Source: Brevibacterium sp. CBA3109
GTDB lineage: Bacteria; Actinomycetota; Actinomycetes; Actinomycetales; Brevibacteriaceae
NCBI RefSeq assembly: GCF_040256645.1
Contig: NZ_CP158281.1
Location: forward strand, 1,178,001 to 1,242,000
Length of the DNA: 64,000 nucleotides
Direction: 5' to 3'
Part shown: piece after piece, positions 55,580-64,000 of the stretch
Layout: each line of letters begins with the position of its first letter
Numbering within the stretch: position 1 is the stretch's first letter
Made by a program: the position numbers and the translations under genes
Notes under the pieces: model-generated
Told to the model about the DNA's origin: nothing
The model's input: only the letters and a program-made list of their open reading frames with translations
Databases searched by the model: none

Positions 55580-56836
55580 ATGGGATTCAATCCGCTGAAG
55601 AAGAAGCACGGCTTTGAGAGACTCCGCAATATCGCGCCCCTGGTCGCTGCCGGGGCCGCCGCGCTGATTCCGGCCACTGTCGGAGCCTCGATGGTCATCG
55701 ATCTGCTGCAGAAGCGCGACCGCGAGCAGAGGGAGGCTCCGCGCCCCGGCACCTTCCACTCGAGTGTCGAAGGCTCCCAGCTGAGCATCTTCACCGACGG
55801 TGAGACCCTGTACGAGGACATGCTCGAGGTGATCGGCTCCGCAACGGAGTCGATTCAGATGGAGACCTTCATCTGGAAGAACGATGAGATCGGTCAGAGG
55901 TTCGTCGACGCCTTCAATGCCGCAGCGCAGCGCGGCGTCGACATCCACCTCATCTACGACGGGTTCGCCAACCTGACCATCCCGCGCTCGTTCTACGCCC
56001 AGCTGGATGATCGCATCAAGGTTCTGCGCCTGTCGACCGTGGCGAGGAAGTTCTGGAAGGGCCCACTGCGCTATTCCGGGCTCAATCATTCGAAGATCCT
56101 CGTCATCGACAACGATGTGGCCTATGTGGGCGGTTTCAACATCGGCTCGCTCTACGCCCGCCACTGGCGAGACACCCACCTCAAAGTGACTGGGCCCGGC
56201 ACCTGGGGACTGCGCCATTCCATCTGCCAGGTGTGGAACGAATACCACGACGCCGGTGAGCAGATCGCGTGGGTCGCACCCTCAGCGTGGGAGTCGAAGA
56301 TCCGGGTCTCAGCCAATCAGCCGATTCAGCTGATCTATCCGATCCGGTCCATGTATCTCAACGCCTTCGAACGCGCACAGGATCGCATCTGGCTCACTAC
56401 TCCGTACTTCATTCCTGACCAGCAGCTTCTCAAATCTCTGATGGAGGCAGCCGAACGCGGCGTCGATGTCAGAGTCATGGTGCCGCAGGAATCCAACCAC
56501 ATCCTCGGCGACTATCTGTCTCGGGGCTTCTTCGAGCAGATGGTGCGCTCGAAGGTCACAGTTCTTCTGTACACGGCATCGATGATCCACGCGAAGATCG
56601 CCACGGTTGACGGCAAGTGGTCGACAGTGGGCACCGCGAACATCGACCGTCTCTCCCTGACCTTCAACTACGAGACCAACGTCGAGGTCATCGACAGCGA
56701 TTTCGCTGCGAAGATGGAGAAGACGTTCCTCGCTGACGGCGAGCACAGCCAGGAGCTCGGACCGGATTGGCTGGACCGCCATCAGCTGACCCAGGCCGCG
56801 GAATGGGTGCTGCGGCCGATGCGTCCGTTCCTCTGA
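55580..56836 (+). CDS. Phospholipase D / cardiolipin synthase family protein
   Basis: 418 residues: N-terminal hydrophobic anchor (about 17-45), then two PLD domains. HxK motifs are NHSKILVIDNDVAYVGGFNI (about 170-190) and IHAKIATVDGKWSTVGTANI (about 335-355), both with the following Asp. Likely makes cardiolipin from phosphatidylglycerol at the membrane. A -10-like TAAAGT ends 9 bases before the ATG, and no ribosome-binding site is visible, so the mRNA may be leaderless. Confidence 0.88.
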   Translation: MGFNPLKKKHGFERLRNIAPLVAAGAAALIPATVGASMVIDLLQKRDREQREAPRPGTFHSSVEGSQLSIFTDGETLYEDMLEVIGSATESIQMETFIWKNDEIGQRFVDAFNAAAQRGVDIHLIYDGFANLTIPRSFYAQLDDRIKVLRLSTVARKFWKGPLRYSGLNHSKILVIDNDVAYVGGFNIGSLYARHWRDTHLKVTGPGTWGLRHSICQVWNEYHDAGEQIAWVAPSAWESKIRVSANQPIQLIYPIRSMYLNAFERAQDRIWLTTPYFIPDQQLLKSLMEAAERGVDVRVMVPQESNHILGDYLSRGFFEQMVRSKVTVLLYTASMIHAKIATVDGKWSTVGTANIDRLSLTFNYETNVEVIDSDFAAKMEKTFLADGEHSQELGPDWLDRHQLTQAAEWVLRPMRPFL

Positions 56837-56951: not shown

Positions 56952-57159
56952 TCAGGGTCCGTGCCTCCTCGGCGCACACCTCGCATCCGGACAGGTGCAC
57001 GTCCATGAGTTCGTCCTGATACGTCGGATCGGCGAGTCTGTGCTCGATGTACTCGTCGATGCGGGCGAAGCAGTCGTCGCAGGACAGATACGGGTCCGTG
57101 TCCTTGAGCAGCTTGTCGATCATGTCCGGCGACAGCGGCTGATTGGTGGGGTCGGTCAT
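56935..57159 (-). CDS. Zinc-binding anti-sigma factor-like protein
   Basis: 74 residues; the zinc site HxxxCxxC appears as HLSGCEVCAEEA near the end, with CDDC earlier (SCDDCFARI), as in RsrA-type anti-sigma factors without a membrane segment. ATGA overlap with the sigma gene means coupled expression. It should bind and inactivate the adjacent ECF sigma factor, perhaps releasing it on disulfide stress. Confidence 0.8.
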   Translation of the reverse strand: MTDPTNQPLSPDMIDKLLKDTDPYLSCDDCFARIDEYIEHRLADPTYQDELMDVHLSGCEVCAEEARTLTALLS

Positions 57160-57809
57160 GATGGTGTCCCTCCGGATCGTGCGTCGAGATGGCCGGAGGC
57201 GATGAGTGCCTCGCGCAGTCGCTTCCTCGCATCATGGACATTCTTGTACAGCGCGTTTCGGGTGGTGCCCATCCGCTCGGCCAGAACGTCGATGGGAACG
57301 TCATCGATGAGCAACGCGGTGACGACCTGCCGCTGATGTGACGTCAGTGTCGAGGCGATCGCCTCCTGAACCGCCTGCCGCAGGTCACCGCCTTCGGCGA
57401 TGCTGGCCGGCGAGTGCTGCCCATCGATGAGCGGCAGGGTCTCTGACAGTGTGACCTCATGGTGTCGCCACGCCTGCCGCCGGATTGCGACGCCGGCGTG
57501 CAGGATTCCGAACTTGTACACCCAGGTGCTGAACCTGCTGCGCCCCTCGAACGTGCCGATCTTGCGCAGCACCGCCAGGTGCGCATCGTCGGCGGCCTGC
57601 TGAGCCAGATCGTCGAGGTCGGTCGTTCCCGCCCCCGGCAGTTGGTGGCGCAGGCGCCACACCTGTAAGCGCGTGGCCTTGAGCAGCAGTTCGTGCAGTT
57701 GTCGCTGAGCGTCGAGTCCGACAGAACCACCGGCGCCGAGGTGGTGGTGCCAGTTGTCCTCGCGCATTTCGTCACCGACGGAGACGGGGAGATCACCCAC
57801 GATCGTCAT
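57156..57809 (-). CDS. ECF-type RNA polymerase sigma factor
   Basis: Sigma-70 region 2 at about 50-115 (LAQQAADDAHLAVLRKI ... RFSTWVYKFGILHAG) and region 4 at 155-210 (HQRQVVTALLIDDVPIDVLAERMG). No region 3, so extracytoplasmic-function type. I chose ATG 57809 (217 residues), but starts up to 57899 are possible because no ribosome-binding site is clear. Pairs with the zinc anti-sigma factor. Target genes unknown; no matching ECF promoter pair was found upstream. Confidence 0.8.
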   Translation of the reverse strand: MTIVGDLPVSVGDEMREDNWHHHLGAGGSVGLDAQRQLHELLLKATRLQVWRLRHQLPGAGTTDLDDLAQQAADDAHLAVLRKIGTFEGRSRFSTWVYKFGILHAGVAIRRQAWRHHEVTLSETLPLIDGQHSPASIAEGGDLRQAVQEAIASTLTSHQRQVVTALLIDDVPIDVLAERMGTTRNALYKNVHDARKRLREALIASGHLDARSGGTPS

Positions 57810-58048
57810 TTTGCCACCACCATGTCGGGTTGAGAAGGGCAGAGCTGAGGACAGACGTGCCGAGAGAGAGGTCATCCTCCGCTGTGCTGAAACGGTCATA
57901 CTTCGTGAGTGTCAGCCGGTGCGGTCGGTCTTACCGGGAATGACGAGGAGATTCTTTTTTTCGGAACAGGGTAAGAACGTCTCGAGAGTACGACACGAAC
58001 AGGGCAAAGAACGCCATCAGGCGATCTCGATCCTGAAAGGACGCGATC

Positions 58049-58501
58049 ATGTCACACAATCTCGCTACTCCCGCAGCCGCACCTGCCCCGATGGGCACCG
58101 GCTCGACTGCTCTGAGATCACACCTCGGCTCGGACCGAGCCTTCTTCCTGCTGCGCACGGTCTTCACCGTGGCCCCGATCCTCTTCGGCCTCGACAAGTT
58201 CTTCGGACTGCTGACCGATTGGGATCACTATCTTGCACCGTGGATCGACGGAATCCTGCCCGGTACGGCCCATCAGGCAATGTTTGCCATCGGCATCATC
58301 GAGATCATCGCCGGACTCGCCGTGGCCATCGCACCGAAGTTCGGATCGCTGCTCGTCGTCGCCTGGCTGGCCGGCATCATCATCGACCTCGTCTCGATGG
58401 GAACGTACTTCGACATCGCCCTGCGCGACTTCGGACTGCTCGTCGGTGCACTTGCCCTGGCTGCACTCGCCTTCGACCGGCCCAAGCGCGTGCATGCCTG
58501 A
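58049..58501 (+). CDS. Small integral membrane protein, DoxX-like
   Basis: 150 residues with four helices (about 32-52, 72-92, 100-120, 125-142). The first has FFLLRTVFTVAPILFGLDKF, typical of DoxX-like and related proteins; GIIEIIAGLAVAIAP in the second is also family-like. AAAGGACG before ATG. It is divergent from the sigma gene across a 239-base gap, and could be one of its targets. Confidence 0.75.
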   Translation: MSHNLATPAAAPAPMGTGSTALRSHLGSDRAFFLLRTVFTVAPILFGLDKFFGLLTDWDHYLAPWIDGILPGTAHQAMFAIGIIEIIAGLAVAIAPKFGSLLVVAWLAGIIIDLVSMGTYFDIALRDFGLLVGALALAALAFDRPKRVHA

Positions 58502-58646: not shown

Positions 58647-59639
58647 ATGGCTTGGCAGTACTGGACCGAGGCCCACCGACAGGGATGTTGGAGGCAGGTG
58701 ACGACCCCTCACGCAGGAGCCGGCGCAGAACGAATGATGCGGATCCGCACGACCGCCTCGGCGGTATCGAAGGGCACCGAAGCCCTCGTTCACACCGGTC
58801 GAGTGCCGACGCGGATCGCCGAACTCATGCGCGCACCGCACCAATTGGGTGACTTTCCCTTTCCTGTCTCCTACGGATATCTCGCTGTCGGTGTTGTCGA
58901 TGAAGGACCGGCCGAGTGGCTCGGGACCCATGTCTTCGGACTGCTGCCCCACCACAGTCACCATCTGGTCACCCCCGACGACGTCGAACCGATCCCTGAG
59001 GCAATCTCTGACCATCGGGCCCTGCTGGCCGGCGCCGCGGAAACCGGGCTCAACATTCTTTGGCAGTCCCCGCCGCGCTACGGTGACAGGGTGGCGATCA
59101 TCGGTGCGGGCATGATCGGAACCGCCACCGCGCTGCTGGCGTCGCACCTTCGCCTCGAGCGCCTCGAAATCATCGACACGAACCCCGAACGGCGTGCCCT
59201 ACTCACCGGTTTGGGCCTGACCGCACTCGCCCCTGAGGATGCAGGCGACGACTGTGACATCGTCATCCACACCTCGGGGAACGAAAGCGGGTTGGCGCGG
59301 GCCCTCGAGATCACCGGCGATGACGGGACCGTCGTCGAAGCCTCGTGGTACGGCGAGACGAGCCCCACCGTGGCCCTCGGTGCCGACTTCCACGCCAGGC
59401 GCCTGTCGATCGTCGCCAGCCAAGTGGGCCAGGTCCCCGCCGGACACCGCGCGCGGAGGACTCGAAGTCAGCGACTGCGCGCCGCACTCTCCGCACTCCA
59501 CGATGACCGGTTCGACGCCCTCATCACCGGGACGTCCCGGTGGCAGGACCTGCCGCAGCTGATGGACGAACTCAGCAGCGACACCACGACAGCGGCAGAG
59601 ACGCTGTGTCATGTGTTCGACTATGAAGAAGGTGCCTGA
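58647..59639 (+). CDS. Zinc-type MDR dehydrogenase (pterin-cluster dehydrogenase)
   Basis: Medium-chain dehydrogenase-like protein of 330 residues; the Rossmann motif is VAIIGAGMIGTATALLA around 150-166, but the N-terminal GroES-like part lacks the zinc Cys clusters of alcohol dehydrogenases. First gene of the coupled cluster: its TGA directly abuts the next ATG (59640). It should oxidise or reduce a pathway intermediate; substrate unknown. Confidence 0.8.
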   Translation: MAWQYWTEAHRQGCWRQVTTPHAGAGAERMMRIRTTASAVSKGTEALVHTGRVPTRIAELMRAPHQLGDFPFPVSYGYLAVGVVDEGPAEWLGTHVFGLLPHHSHHLVTPDDVEPIPEAISDHRALLAGAAETGLNILWQSPPRYGDRVAIIGAGMIGTATALLASHLRLERLEIIDTNPERRALLTGLGLTALAPEDAGDDCDIVIHTSGNESGLARALEITGDDGTVVEASWYGETSPTVALGADFHARRLSIVASQVGQVPAGHRARRTRSQRLRAALSALHDDRFDALITGTSRWQDLPQLMDELSSDTTTAAETLCHVFDYEEGA

Positions 59640-60023
59640 ATGTTCAGCCTCAGCGTCAACGATCACGTCATGATCGCTCACAGCCTGCCAGACGAATTCT
59701 TCGGGCCTGCTCAGGCTCTCCACGGTGCCACACTCGCCGTCGAAGCCACGTTCACGCGAGACCAGCTCGACGAGCATTCGGTCGTCCTCGACATCGGGCA
59801 GGCTCTGCAGATGCTCGACGATGCTCTGACACCGCTGCGGTATGCCAACCTCGATGAGCATCCCGATTTCGCCGGACGCTTCTCGACGAGCGAAGCGATC
59901 GCCGAGCACATCGGCACCAGTCTGTCCGTTTCCCTCGCTGATCGTCCCGACATCGGGATCTCGGTCCACCTTCGCGAGAACCCTCGAGCCGCGGTGTCCT
60001 ACACTGTTGTGAATCGGCCGTGA
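59640..60023 (+). CDS. 6-pyruvoyl/6-carboxytetrahydropterin synthase-like protein with altered metal motif
   Basis: 127 residues. Matches QueD/PTPS over VVLDIGQALQMLDDALTPL, YANLDEHPDFAG and TSEAIAEHI. The front half has IAHSLPDEFFGPAQALHGAT: two His of the zinc site are present but the CxxxHGH motif is missing (no Cys, third His is Ala). It may therefore act on a different compound or have lost catalysis. Located between dehydrogenase and glycosyltransferase with a GTGA overlap. Confidence 0.75.
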   Translation: MFSLSVNDHVMIAHSLPDEFFGPAQALHGATLAVEATFTRDQLDEHSVVLDIGQALQMLDDALTPLRYANLDEHPDFAGRFSTSEAIAEHIGTSLSVSLADRPDIGISVHLRENPRAAVSYTVVNRP

Positions 60024-61099
60024 ACTTCACCCTCATCGAACCCGACCTCGGGCGCATCAGCGGGGGACTGCGCTTCAACGCCGAGCTCTGTGCCGCATCA
60101 GGAGGCAGACTCGAACGCATCGTCGCTCCCGGCGCCTGGCCCGAACCCTCGGACGACGACGTGCGCAGGCTGCGCCAGCTGGTTGCCGAGTGCCAATCGG
60201 GTTCAAACGATGAGCCGAATGCGCAGAGCCGCCCGGTTCTCATCGACGGGCTCATCGGGTGCAGTCTGTCCACGTCACTGCCGGGCCCGATCGTGATGCT
60301 CCAGCATTCGCTTGCACAGACACCCGCGTCCGAGCACCGTGAAGGCCAGCACCTGCGAGCCGCATCCGCAGTGGTGACTCCGAGTGCCTTCGCCGCCGCT
60401 GAGGTGACCCGGAGATATGGCATCACCGCCGAGGTGGCCCAGCCCGGAACGCACAGACGTCCCCTGACCCAGCCCGACCTGTCTCCATCTCCATCTCTGT
60501 CAATATCTCTGTCCGCAGTCGGAGCAGCAGGCAGCGGTGACTCCAGTGGCCAGCGTACGGCTCACTTCATCTGCCTTGGTGCGATGGAGGACAACAAGAA
60601 CCAGCTGTTTCTCAGCTGCGTGCTCCAGGAACTGCGACGGCGGGGTGTCACCGGCTGGCGCTGCACCTTGGCCGGCCCCATCACCGACACCGTTTACGCA
60701 CAGGACGTTGATGATGCGCTGGAGGGCCTGGCATCCGTCGAGCGTGTGGGCGAGCTCGACAAGGACGCTGTCGACGACCTCTACCGCCACGCGGACCTGC
60801 TTCTCCTGCCTTCGAAGGCAGAGAGCTTCGGAATGGTCGTGCGAGAAGCCGCGGCCGCGGCTATTCCCTCGTTCGTCACCGCGGGCACCGGGGCAGAAGA
60901 AGCACTTGGCGCCGGTCGTGGCCTGGCACTCGACGTCTCAACGTGGGCAGACTCGCTGGAACGGTGGTTGGGCGACGAGGCTGACCGAGCCGAGCTCGCT
61001 GCAAAAGCTCTTGCCGCCCGTGAGTCTGCGATGCACGAGTGGGCTGACACGGCGCGCACCGTGCTTGCCGTCCTGGATGGTGTGGAGCGAGTGTTATGA
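60020..61099 (+). CDS. Glycosyltransferase, GT4-like
   Basis: 359 residues, GT-B fold. The C-terminal half has the retaining E-x7-E motif in AESFGMVVREA, and IVMLQHSLAQTP near the middle. No membrane helices or signal, so it acts in the cytoplasm. GTG start overlapping the PTPS-like stop; TGA overlaps the methyltransferase ATG. Predicted to add a sugar to the cluster's product. Confidence 0.8.
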   Translation: MNFTLIEPDLGRISGGLRFNAELCAASGGRLERIVAPGAWPEPSDDDVRRLRQLVAECQSGSNDEPNAQSRPVLIDGLIGCSLSTSLPGPIVMLQHSLAQTPASEHREGQHLRAASAVVTPSAFAAAEVTRRYGITAEVAQPGTHRRPLTQPDLSPSPSLSISLSAVGAAGSGDSSGQRTAHFICLGAMEDNKNQLFLSCVLQELRRRGVTGWRCTLAGPITDTVYAQDVDDALEGLASVERVGELDKDAVDDLYRHADLLLLPSKAESFGMVVREAAAAAIPSFVTAGTGAEEALGAGRGLALDVSTWADSLERWLGDEADRAELAAKALAARESAMHEWADTARTVLAVLDGVERVL

Positions 61100-62061
61100 C
61101 TGCAGCCGAGCCGGGGTGGCTGGACCTGAGGGTGCCCGTTGACGATGCCGCCAGAGAGTATGCGTTCCCGCTCCTCGACGAGGCGGCCAGTGCGCTGTCG
61201 AACCGCTCGCTCACAGCCGGCACAGAACGACCGCTCATAGCCATCGACATCGGAGCAGGGACCGGTAACTCCATGCGGTGGTTCGATGCCCATCTCACCC
61301 AGCGGCTGTGCGGACGTCGTGTGCAGTGGGTTCTCGTCGATGCCGATGAAGCCGCACTCGAGATCGCTGCTGACAGATTCGACATCCCCGTGCGCACTGT
61401 GGCGGCCCCGATCTCCTCCCTGCCGGACATCGCAGCCGAGGCGCTGGCTGAGGTGTTTTTGAAGGCACCCACTGTGTCGCCGCATCCATGCGATCTCCTC
61501 ATCACCGGCAGCGCTCTGCTCGATGTGCTCACTCGTGATGACATGGCGGCCATCGTCGACACTCTGCAGCGCTTCTCCGGAATCGGAATCTTCCTGCTCA
61601 GCATCTCGGGTCAGTGGCATCTCAGCCCGCCCCATCCAGACGACAGCGTCATCGACGAGGCGTTCGCTCGCCACCAGCGACGCGAATCACGGCTTGGCAC
61701 ACAGTCAGCGCCGGCGCTGGAGGCCGAGGCAGGCGGTACCGGTGCACGAGTGGAAACCTCCGCCAGTCCCTGGCATCTCGAAGCACCACGAGACTCGGAC
61801 TTCCTCACGCGATTCCTCACCGAACGCGTCGATGCCGCCATTGAGGAAGACCCCGGTCTGCGAGAGGTGGGTCGAACGTGGCTGCAGGAACGGCTGAAGC
61901 AGATCGAGTCGCGGTCGGACAGTCAGGCAGGTCGGCCGGACGGTCAGGCTGCTGGGCTCAGCGTCGTCGTCGACCACACTGATCTGCTCATCGACGCTGC
62001 AGGCAACCGTGGCCGAACTGCCGACCAGCATGCTCAGACGTCCGGCGAGCCGAAGCAATGA
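61096..62061 (+). CDS. Class I SAM-dependent methyltransferase
   Basis: 321 residues. SAM motif I is AIDIGAGTGNSMRWF near residue 53; a second acidic strand (WVLVDADE) follows, as in Rossmann-type methyltransferases. N-terminal 45 residues and a 50-residue Gly/Asp tail are outside the core. ATGA overlap on both sides (60020 gene and 62058 gene). Confidence 0.8.
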   Translation: MTAAEPGWLDLRVPVDDAAREYAFPLLDEAASALSNRSLTAGTERPLIAIDIGAGTGNSMRWFDAHLTQRLCGRRVQWVLVDADEAALEIAADRFDIPVRTVAAPISSLPDIAAEALAEVFLKAPTVSPHPCDLLITGSALLDVLTRDDMAAIVDTLQRFSGIGIFLLSISGQWHLSPPHPDDSVIDEAFARHQRRESRLGTQSAPALEAEAGGTGARVETSASPWHLEAPRDSDFLTRFLTERVDAAIEEDPGLREVGRTWLQERLKQIESRSDSQAGRPDGQAAGLSVVVDHTDLLIDAAGNRGRTADQHAQTSGEPKQ

Positions 62062-62939
62062 CAACGATGAGCTCGATGTGGGTGCGGCGGGTACTCATGC
62101 TGCTCATCACCGTCATCCTGCTTGCTCTCACCGTGCGCATCGTCGGAGTCCAGGCCCTGCTCGACGGCGGACGCGTGGTCACCCCTTTGACGGTTCTCGC
62201 ATCGCTGGGTCTCGGCCTTCTCGCCACGGTGGCACAGTCCATGCGATTCTCCCTGCTGCTCAAGCAGTCCGGAACACATGTGACTCGACGCCGAGCCCTC
62301 GCCGACTGCTATTCGGCCAGTCTGCTCAACATGATCATGCCTGGCGGGTTGGGCGGAGACCTGGCGCGCGTCGCCGCCTATCGCGATACCGGCGAGCGTC
62401 GGTGGTTGTCCCCGCTCAGCATCGTCGGTGCCGAACGGCTCAGTGCCACCACCCTGCTCTTCGCCACGGCCACGTTCACTCTCATCCCGGTGGCCCCACA
62501 CTTCGCGTGGATTGCCGCAGCGGTCGCCGCAATGACCGGAGTCCTCTCCATCCTGGGCATGCAGGGGATGAGCGCGTCGACGATAGGGCTCGTGTGGCTG
62601 ACGGCAGCGGTGACCATCGGATCGTTCCTTGGGCTCTACCTCATCGCGATGCTCGCGCTCAGTGGCCCGGTCATTCCGGCGCTCGCCGTCGTCGGCCTCG
62701 CAGCGATGAGCATTCCCCTGGGAGTCGGTGGCTGGGGAGTGCGCGAAATCAGCGTGAGCATTCTGGCCGGCAGCCTCGCAAGCTCCGTCGAATGGGCGGT
62801 CACCTCATCGACCGGCTACGGCCTCCTGGCTGTGATCTCAACTCTGCCAGGCGCGATCACCCTTGTTGCTAGGCTGTGGGGCCGCCGCCACGACAGCGGT
62901 GAGAGTCCTGCGCTGAGGCACCGTTCGCCAGCTCGCTGA
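62058..62939 (+). CDS. UPF0104 / YbhN-like integral membrane protein (lysylphosphatidylglycerol synthase TM domain)
   Basis: 293 residues, about eight helices, with MIMPGGLGGDLARVAAYR near residue 95, the family's signature loop. Without the catalytic C-terminal domain of MprF it is probably a flippase-like transporter, perhaps exporting the glycosylated product. The 3' end overlaps the convergent RibA-RibD_C gene by 71 bases. Confidence 0.8.
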   Translation: MTTMSSMWVRRVLMLLITVILLALTVRIVGVQALLDGGRVVTPLTVLASLGLGLLATVAQSMRFSLLLKQSGTHVTRRRALADCYSASLLNMIMPGGLGGDLARVAAYRDTGERRWLSPLSIVGAERLSATTLLFATATFTLIPVAPHFAWIAAAVAAMTGVLSILGMQGMSASTIGLVWLTAAVTIGSFLGLYLIAMLALSGPVIPALAVVGLAAMSIPLGVGGWGVREISVSILAGSLASSVEWAVTSSTGYGLLAVISTLPGAITLVARLWGRRHDSGESPALRHRSPAR

Positions 62940-64000
62940 GCAGGTATTCAGTGCACATATCCTCCCCGAACTGGTAGCGCCGGAATGGCCGACGCAGCGC
63001 CTGCGCCATGACCGGAGTTCCCTCGAAGCGGATCCCCGGGATTCCATTGCCGATGAACACAGGTGCCGAGGTGAGGAACAGTCGGTCGAGCACGCCGGCG
63101 GCAAGGAACGACGACACGGTCCGTCCGCCGCCCTCAACGAGGATCGACCCGGCGACATGCTCACGGATGAGCGAGACGATGAGTGCTGGAGAGATCTCGT
63201 CATCCTCAGCCACAGGGAGCCGAACCATACGGACGTGGTCGCCGACGTCCGAACCGGGGGCAACCTCGGCGCCGATGAGCCACAGCGTCGGTGCCTCCGG
63301 CGAGGTGAGGACGGTTGCTGTGGCCGGGACCCGACCATGCGGGTCGAGGACGACGCGGACAGGATTCTTCCCGGGCACGGCGCGCACGGTCAGCTGGGGA
63401 TCATCGGCGATGACCGTGCCGCATCCGACCAGAACGGCACCGACGGAGGCCCGGATCCGATGGAGGTGTGCACGGTCGATCTGCCCGGAGACGAATTGGG
63501 CGTCACCATCGGATGTCGCGATGAAACCGTCCTCACTCTGCGCCAATTGCGCAACGACTTCATCACCGTCGGCGATCGTGTCGTAGACCTCGAGAGCGTT
63601 GTCAGTACTCGTCTCCGCTGAGCCGGCGTGCGGGTGATCGGTTGAGCCGGCGTGCGGGTGATCGGGAGGGACGATGTGGTTCATGAACCGACGTTTGGTC
63701 TCAAGATAGGCGGAGTTCTCCGGCCTGTCGGGCACCTGGAGGCCACGACGATCGGTCACCGTGATTCCCAGGTCCTCGAGCGCGGTGATCTTGCTCGGAT
63801 TCGAGGACAGCAGGGTGATCTGCGGGCAGTCGAGTTCCTGGAGGATCGCCGCTGCGGCAGTGTAGTCCCGGGCATCGTCGGGCAGGTCGAGTGCACGGTT
63901 GGCGGCGACGGTGTCGAGGCCATCATCCTGGAGGGCATAGGCGCGCAGTTTGTTCTCCAGCCCGATGCCGCGACCTTCGTGCCCGCGCAGATAGATGAGG
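62869..64000 (-). CDS. GTP cyclohydrolase II - RibD_C reductase fusion (partial at right edge)
   Basis: Continuous frame from the right edge. Its upstream half is GTP cyclohydrolase II: LRGHEGRGIGLENKLRAYAL, DLPDDARDYTAAAAIL, SSNPSKITALEDLGITV. A linker with a repeated HPHAGS follows, then a RibD C-terminal reductase domain (LVGCGTVIADDPQLTVR and VEGGGRTVSSFLAAG). The zinc Cys of cyclohydrolase II lie outside the window. The combination would open GTP and reduce the resulting pyrimidine or pterin, giving the precursor for the cluster. Confidence 0.85.
   Translation of the reverse strand, partial: LIYLRGHEGRGIGLENKLRAYALQDDGLDTVAANRALDLPDDARDYTAAAAILQELDCPQITLLSSNPSKITALEDLGITVTDRRGLQVPDRPENSAYLETKRRFMNHIVPPDHPHAGSTDHPHAGSAETSTDNALEVYDTIADGDEVVAQLAQSEDGFIATSDGDAQFVSGQIDRAHLHRIRASVGAVLVGCGTVIADDPQLTVRAVPGKNPVRVVLDPHGRVPATATVLTSPEAPTLWLIGAEVAPGSDVGDHVRMVRLPVAEDDEISPALIVSLIREHVAGSILVEGGGRTVSSFLAAGVLDRLFLTSAPVFIGNGIPGIRFEGTPVMAQALRRPFRRYQFGEDMCTEYLLSELANGASAQDSHRCRGGGPTA
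63619..63666. repeat. 24-base tandem duplication in the fusion's linker
   Basis: Two copies, 63619-63642 and 63643-63666, identical at 23 of 24 bases. They code for the two HPHAGS copies in the interdomain linker and keep the frame. Confidence 0.85.

Follow-up and report, generated by a model that had tools for sequence, protein, structure and literature searches.

A conserved GTP-diverting gene cluster in Brevibacterium and its possible phospholipid product

In a stretch of 64,000 nucleotides from Brevibacterium sp. CBA3109 (contig NZ_CP158281.1, positions 1,178,001 to 1,242,000; we call the whole stretch the window and use its numbering throughout), the last genes form a cluster that joins a dehydrogenase, a PTPS homologue, a glycosyltransferase (GT), a methyltransferase and a UPF0104 membrane protein of the LPG_synthase_TM family (LPG) with a fusion of GTP cyclohydrolase II (GCHII) and RibD_C. 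The cluster is larger than these six genes. A CDP-alcohol phosphatidyltransferase gene (CDP-OH) adjoins it just past the window, and it was overlooked at first because the window ends before it. Based on gene content and conservation, we propose at about even odds (a probability of roughly 0.5) that the product is a membrane phospholipid with a GTP-derived, glycosylated and methylated head group. The original prediction was a glycosylated, methylated metabolite derived from GTP, and its core stands, since a conserved GTP-diverting cluster with a GT and a methyltransferase is present, but it missed CDP-OH and with it a product that is probably a phospholipid. No product for this gene set was found in the literature searched, in which subscription papers are mostly not covered, and the cluster may point to a new kind of bacterial lipid.

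Results

A CDP-alcohol phosphatidyltransferase belongs to the cluster

The CDP-OH gene (64336-65037) is on the - strand like the fusion, and 57 bp separate its end from the fusion start. It is one of three CDP-OH genes in the 3.67-Mb genome, and its protein matches PF01066 at 38.7 bits (cut-off 22). We take the motif of CDP-alcohol phosphotransferases to be DGx2ARx8Gx3Dx3D. In all 47 CDP-OH sequences D99, D102, G103, A106, R107, G115, D119 and D123 are invariant, and the spacing between AR and G is one residue shorter in 12/88 loci, the window genome included, with one locus off the pattern.

The presence of CDP-OH follows that of the other genes. Of the 60 family genomes, 20 have the dehydrogenase, 20 have CDP-OH and 20 have the PTPS homologue, and these are the same 20 each time, so that CDP-OH is found in 20/20 genomes positive for the dehydrogenase and PTPS homologue and in 0/40 negative ones. 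Its position varies: in Brevibacterium it lies by GCHII, in Streptomyces it diverges from the dehydrogenase, and in Actinomadura it is upstream on the same strand. In one genome (G403) CDP-OH is well inside another contig while GCHII-RibD_C, GT, PTPS and dehydrogenase genes stand together, and the co-occurrence there is therefore independent of adjacency; methyltransferase and LPG homologues were found in neither of the two stretches of this genome (L252, L253).

The predicted CDP-OH model (pLDDT 90.0) is closest to PgsA (Z 15.7, root-mean-square deviation (rmsd) 2.7, 163 aligned) and next to the phosphatidylinositol phosphate (PIP) synthases at Z about 12 (PIPS Z 12.3, rmsd 3.6, 165 aligned), the best unrelated helical row reaching Z 7.7, and these values are to be read knowing that helical models can reach high Z by chance. 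A profile search of the PDB with CDP-OH gave choline phosphotransferases first, then PssA, AF2299, PgsA and PIPS, and a search with the single protein sequence gave one chance match. PgsA and PIP synthase couple CDP-diacylglycerol to a phosphorylated polyol, and by analogy ribityl phosphate would be a polyol of the kind that they use.

Distribution and gene content

Our 147 loci include six dehydrogenase-sequence duplicates, which were dropped to leave 141 non-redundant loci, 132 of them in the main dehydrogenase clade. Genes were counted in the 106 main-clade loci flanked on each side by 7.5 kb or more, the other 26 being dropped for gene counts only. The PTPS homologue is present in all 106, GT in 104, CDP-OH in 96, the methyltransferase and LPG in 95 each, GCHII in 85, RibD_C in 54, and a creatininase-family gene, which we discuss below with GCHII, in 52.

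The original prediction mentioned similar neighbourhoods in other actinobacteria, and the gene-neighbourhood search finds synteny far beyond close relatives, in actinomycetes, some gammaproteobacteria and on Rhizobiaceae plasmids. The dehydrogenase profile matches 58/394 genomes of the class, in 25/137 genera, and 43/396 genomes of the phylum, 34 of these with low distant-clade scores. Among the best 80 of 588 matches, actinomycete loci come from Brevibacterium, Micrococcus, Kocuria, Georgenia, Ornithinimicrobium, Streptomyces, Amycolatopsis, Actinomadura, Pseudonocardia, Lentzea and Micromonospora, and gammaproteobacterial loci from Kushneria, Chromohalobacter and Thiorhodococcus; these names lean towards relatives of the window dehydrogenase because they are the best 80, and stretches were taken for part of the further matching genomes. 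Plasmid copies occur in Microbacterium (mobilizable), Thiodictyon, Rhizobium, Peteryoungia, Agrobacterium, Allorhizobium (identified by our own profiles) and Streptomyces fungicidicus.

On Rhizobiaceae and Thiodictyon plasmids, a similar gene set is joined by a cytochrome b gene (cytochrome b561 in the Rhizobiaceae version) and a sulfatase-family gene. With the sulfatase Pfam profile (cut-off 25), the Rhizobium protein falls just below at 23.1 bits and one actinomycete protein is above at 27.2. A sulfatase-family protein is encoded near the cluster in many actinomycetes, with 37/154 loci in all, three of which are the profile seeds (for example L015:3830-5611, - strand), and it may act in the outer leaflet as a head-group transferase. 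A search of the window genome with one such protein from another genome, run without a positive control, gave no match.

Genes in the window

All six open reading frames are present in the window, five on the + strand and one convergent on the - strand. The tight forward run of the original prediction is confirmed: the dehydrogenase and PTPS genes meet at 0 bp, TGA being followed directly by ATG, and the three further forward junctions overlap by 4 bp each (GTGA, ATGA and ATGA). The convergent GCHII-RibD_C fusion is likewise real and shares 71 bp with the LPG gene, the last of the forward genes.

The first gene (58647-59639, +) encodes a medium-chain, BchC-like dehydrogenase that is 42-45% identical to six relatives. 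It scores 24.3 bits with ADH_zinc_N, under the Pfam cut-off of 31.8, and 37.1 bits with the BchC model, far under the cut-off of 291.25. The zinc-ligand Cys and the GHE motif were not seen when the alignment was inspected by eye.

The third gene (60020-61099, +) encodes a GT4-family GT, with Glycos_transf_1 at 62.6 bits (cut-off 26.4) in the Pfam scan. In six Amycolatopsis loci (L104, L105, L114, L140, L157 and L166) there is a second GT match about 4-5 kb past LPG. The fourth gene (61096-62061, +) encodes a class I methyltransferase-like protein presumed to depend on S-adenosylmethionine. Its Pfam score is 20.9 bits, under the cut-off of 30, and its predicted model (pLDDT 91.7) has a class I fold for which Foldseek returns only general methyltransferases.

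The protein of the fifth gene (62058-62939, +) matches LPG_synthase_TM (PF03706) at 48.5 bits (cut-off 33.4) and TIGR00374 at 16.1 bits, below the cut-off of 43.2. Because CDP-OH indicates a phospholipid, this UPF0104 protein would be better taken as a flippase-like partner of a lipid, and export of a soluble metabolite fits it less well.

Four neighbouring genes were considered as cluster members and rejected. A small putative membrane protein without a Pfam match (58049-58501, +) recurs in 2/154 loci, its own included. The cardiolipin-synthase-like gene (55580-56836, +), the sigma-70 family factor (57156-57899, -) and the upstream DUF1348 gene were found in 3, 1 and 2 of 147 loci, respectively, in stretches that extend only about 9-10 kb.

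A PTPS homologue without the known catalytic residues

The second gene (59640-60023, +) encodes a PF01242 protein (69.9 bits, cut-off 22.4) whose sole PDB match is 3d7j, the Streptomyces coelicolor protein SCO6650 (E 7e-27). The roles of the catalytic Cys and His, zinc His and pterin-binding Glu columns are those that we assume from PTPS structures. In the 132 main-clade PTPS rows, Ala always stands where the catalytic Cys would be, the third zinc His is always replaced (Ala 130, Val 2), the catalytic His position holds Tyr in 125, His in 3, Met in 3 and Phe in 1, and the Glu before HGH is Gln in 131 and Arg in 1, while the pterin-binding Glu113 and Glu85 are kept in all 132. The window protein has Ala for both the catalytic Cys and one zinc His and retains Glu113. 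In the distant clade of the dehydrogenase tree, the third zinc His is present in 8/8 PTPS rows and the catalytic Cys is absent.

The motifs of PTPS and QueD (COG0720) are given as CxxxxxHGH, CxxxHGH and ExxHGH in PMC5041015, and across the 132 main-clade rows the homologue has none of the three, the Cys and Glu places being substituted. We therefore reject a canonical QueD or PTPS function, as every row has lost the catalytic Cys and one zinc His. The original prediction had a PTPS-type enzyme forming a pterin or deazapurine ring by the established chemistry, and the same losses leave this without support. The sequence of the protein is conserved, though without the published enzyme motifs. 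Binding of a 2-amino-4-oxo ring by Glu113 would fit the RibD_C fusion, which lacks a deaminase domain.

The GCHII-RibD_C fusion and residue 105

The window edge truncates the fusion (62869-64000, -), leaving 376 of 469 codons inside; in the genome sequence the full 469-residue protein is encoded at 62869-64278. RibD_C scores 123 bits (cut-off 24.1), and GTP_cyclohydro2 (PF00925) scores 98 bits on the truncated protein (cut-off 23.3). None of the six window proteins showed a deaminase domain in the Pfam scan. Elsewhere in the genome there are a GCHII match of 60% identity in a 540-residue open frame, RibD_C matches in a 384-residue frame near 3.24 Mb, and a weak RibD_C-like match in a 255-residue frame at 3.65 Mb. 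These look like a separate housekeeping GCHII and RibD, so the fusion of the cluster seems to be an additional, dedicated set. On a Rhizobium plasmid, the GCHII domain of the cluster protein (L235:8716-9819, +) is preceded by about 170 residues that match no Pfam family.

Tyr105 of GCHII presumably has a role in deformylation, and the window protein has Tyr at the position aligned to Tyr105 of Escherichia coli RibA GCHII (2bz0). Residue 105 is Tyr in 42 of 105 non-redundant GCHII rows, and a creatininase-family gene (match above 200 bits) accompanies none of these. In the other 63 it is Met (42), His (12), Leu (6), Gln (1), Ile (1) or Ser (1), and creatininase accompanies 59. The four non-Tyr rows without it are L125, L162, L204 and L216, of which L162 stops at the end of a contig piece and L204 runs beyond its stretch. 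Residues read from the alignment are Tyr in L077 and L143, Ser in L125 and Ile in L162. Chromohalobacter L160 (Tyr) has a 73-bit creatininase match, which is absent at the 200-bit threshold but was present in the earlier counts of 80 rows. Related loci in these counts are not independent of one another.

The same pairing is seen on plasmids: in the four alphaproteobacterial loci that carry GCHII the residue is Tyr and creatininase is absent, and S. fungicidicus has Met with creatininase. The window genome has no creatininase-family match, and 6/14 control genomes have one. On the dehydrogenase tree of 105 rows, residue 105 changes six times and creatininase seven times, giving three independent pairs on supported branches and six on all branches (two and five with 80 rows), with a mean of 2.9 concordant and 0 contrary pairs over 200 pairings.

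The Sinorhizobium meliloti protein BrbF is a creatininase-family formamidase that acts on the formylated GCHII product (PMC9478397). If the creatininase-family neighbour does complete the deformylation, this would suggest why some GCHII enzymes stop at a formylated product.

Discussion

A proposed route to the product

Gene content, conservation, co-occurrence and active-site residues are read from the sequences and folds from predicted models; every reaction given here, the order of the steps and the lipid nature of the product are what we infer from them. GCHII would open GTP to 2,5-diamino-6-ribosylamino-4(3H)-pyrimidinone 5'-phosphate, with the creatininase-family protein completing the deformylation where GCHII lacks Tyr105. 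RibD_C, with no deaminase domain, would then reduce the ribose to ribityl and leave the 2-amino group in place. Remodelling of the side chain may fall to the dehydrogenase together with the PTPS homologue, which is non-canonical but retains the Glu for the 2-amino-4-oxo ring; it may involve oxidation at C2', after which the 5-amino group would close a dihydropterin. CDP-OH would couple the phosphorylated polyol with CDP-diacylglycerol in the manner of PgsA and PIP synthase, the GT4 enzyme and the methyltransferase would modify the head group, and the UPF0104 protein would carry the lipid to the outer leaflet.

If this is correct, a cluster whose dehydrogenase is found in about a fifth of the genera sampled in the class as well as in several proteobacteria makes a lipid that is new to us, whose head group branches off early in riboflavin synthesis. 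The public label of the PTPS homologue family, 6-carboxytetrahydropterin synthase, would then need correction.

Evidence against a phospholipid, and alternatives

Several observations weigh against the phospholipid proposal. Foldseek with the CDP-OH model gave no match at E <= 0.001, the best being PgsA at 3.6e-3, and the NCBIfam scan of the window genome's CDP-OH protein gave none. The family assignment rests on PF01066 and the motif, and the predicted fold does not reveal the acceptor. CDP-OH is absent from 10 of the 106 full-flank main-clade stretches. RibD_C is missing in about half of these loci, 38 of which have creatininase and GCHII without it, and the eight genomes of the Streptomyces type that were searched have only 29-36% identical matches to a cluster RibD_C. 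The reduction may therefore be done there by another enzyme, or not at all.

The creatininase-family step is also open to objection. On GCHII's own tree (80 rows) the change between Tyr and non-Tyr happens once, leaving only one independent pair, with 1/200 pairings contrary. For the dehydrogenase tree, the sign test gives a median p of 0.25, short of a significance that so few independent pairs cannot reach. Two cluster creatininases score best with the MftE model (132-134 bits, below the cut-off of 172) and only 37.3 and 36.6 bits with NCBIfam ArfB (cut-off 180), so a formamidase role rests on context.

The variant clusters count against the proposal as well, and they bear on two alternatives. 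In the stretches read for the distant clade (L069-L077), 0/9 loci have homologues of CDP-OH, LPG or the main-clade methyltransferase. These loci retain RibD_C, the dehydrogenase, the PTPS homologue and GT, with GCHII in 4/9, and in the two loci checked a different methyltransferase follows GT. Without the lipid genes, the core may make a soluble product there. This favours an alternative for the whole cluster, in which the UPF0104 protein exports a soluble pteridine or pyrimidine that carries sugar and methyl groups, and CDP-OH has another task. Pteridine glycosides are known from cyanobacteria (cyanopterin). We consider this alternative unlikely, though worth keeping in view, because CDP-OH is found in every positive and no negative genome of the family and in 96 of 106 loci in several arrangements.

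The second alternative is that CDP-OH, GT4, UPF0104 and, in some lineages, sulfatase-family genes assemble a glycophospholipid or envelope polymer of a general kind, to which the GTP-derived unit is added late as a decoration instead of forming its head group. Plasmids of Dinoroseobacter, Qingshengfaniella and Alloyangia (L234, L236, L240) carry CDP-OH, sulfatase-family, LPG_TM and cytochrome b genes without PTPS, so the lipid module is not everywhere tied to the GTP branch; CDP-OH scores 111-131 bits on these plasmids, little lower than the 137-150 in the PTPS-bearing Rhizobiaceae clusters. In the 60 family genomes, however, the CDP-OH type tracks the dehydrogenase/PTPS pair without exception, and we regard a late decoration as doubtful. 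The Dinoroseobacter module without PTPS adjoins an importer with an NMT1/THI5-type binding protein.

A spare supply of riboflavin, folate or queuosine precursors, which the riboflavin-enzyme domains of GCHII and RibD_C and the public label of the PTPS homologue might suggest, is very improbable given the apparent housekeeping GCHII and RibD elsewhere in the genome, the loss of PTPS/QueD catalytic residues in 132/132 rows, and GT, methyltransferase and membrane genes that are ill-suited to a vitamin route.

Returning to the phospholipid, we can offer one quite speculative extension, which we think improbable as it stands: the head group could be a redox- or light-active, pterin-like heterocycle from GTP, anchored by the lipid as a new membrane cofactor, with the cytochrome b561-type protein of proteobacterial clusters as a partner exchanging electrons and some marine plasmids with the lipid module only, one of them with the NMT1/THI5-type importer, behaving as if scavenging the base.

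Comparison with known systems

The GCHII and RibD_C domains are common to the window cluster and to the start of the riboflavin pathway (RibA, RibD), but the cluster adds a dehydrogenase, a PTPS homologue, a GT, a methyltransferase and lipid genes, and has no deaminase domain. The creatininase-family gene of other lineages parallels the BrbF/ArfB formamidases (PMC9478397), although the cluster proteins score higher with MftE than with ArfB. Toxoflavin and pseudoiodinine clusters (PMC9911603) likewise divert a GTP cyclohydrolase, a RibD-family protein and a methyltransferase to a specialised product. Unlike these, the six window proteins have no WD-40 or sulphatase-modifying-factor Pfam match, and the cluster has a PTPS homologue, GT4, CDP-OH and UPF0104 instead.

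Phosphatidylinositol mannosides are made by a step of the PgsA/PIP synthase type followed by GT4 glycosylation. The logic of the cluster is similar, with a CDP-OH fold near PgsA and PIPS, a GT4 enzyme and a flippase-like membrane gene, but its head-group supply genes are GTP-derived and no inositol gene is among the cluster proteins scanned.

The closest comparison is with S. coelicolor. The SCO6650 protein reportedly has no zinc and no catalytic triad, and SCO6655, a GCHII, is said to release a formylated product. The gene order of the Streptomyces type is PTPS-GT-methyltransferase-LPG-creatininase-GCHII, with which the two S. coelicolor locus numbers, five apart, are compatible. Compared with the SCO6655 type, the window GCHII has Tyr105 and is fused to RibD_C, in a genome without a creatininase match. 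SCO6655 is listed with the S. coelicolor genes that show an anticorrelation with predicted flux, the majority of which go up in stationary phase (PMC2853524), a pattern that would suit a specialised role better than a housekeeping one. If our proposal is right, the orphan proteins SCO6650 and SCO6655 would gain a pathway.

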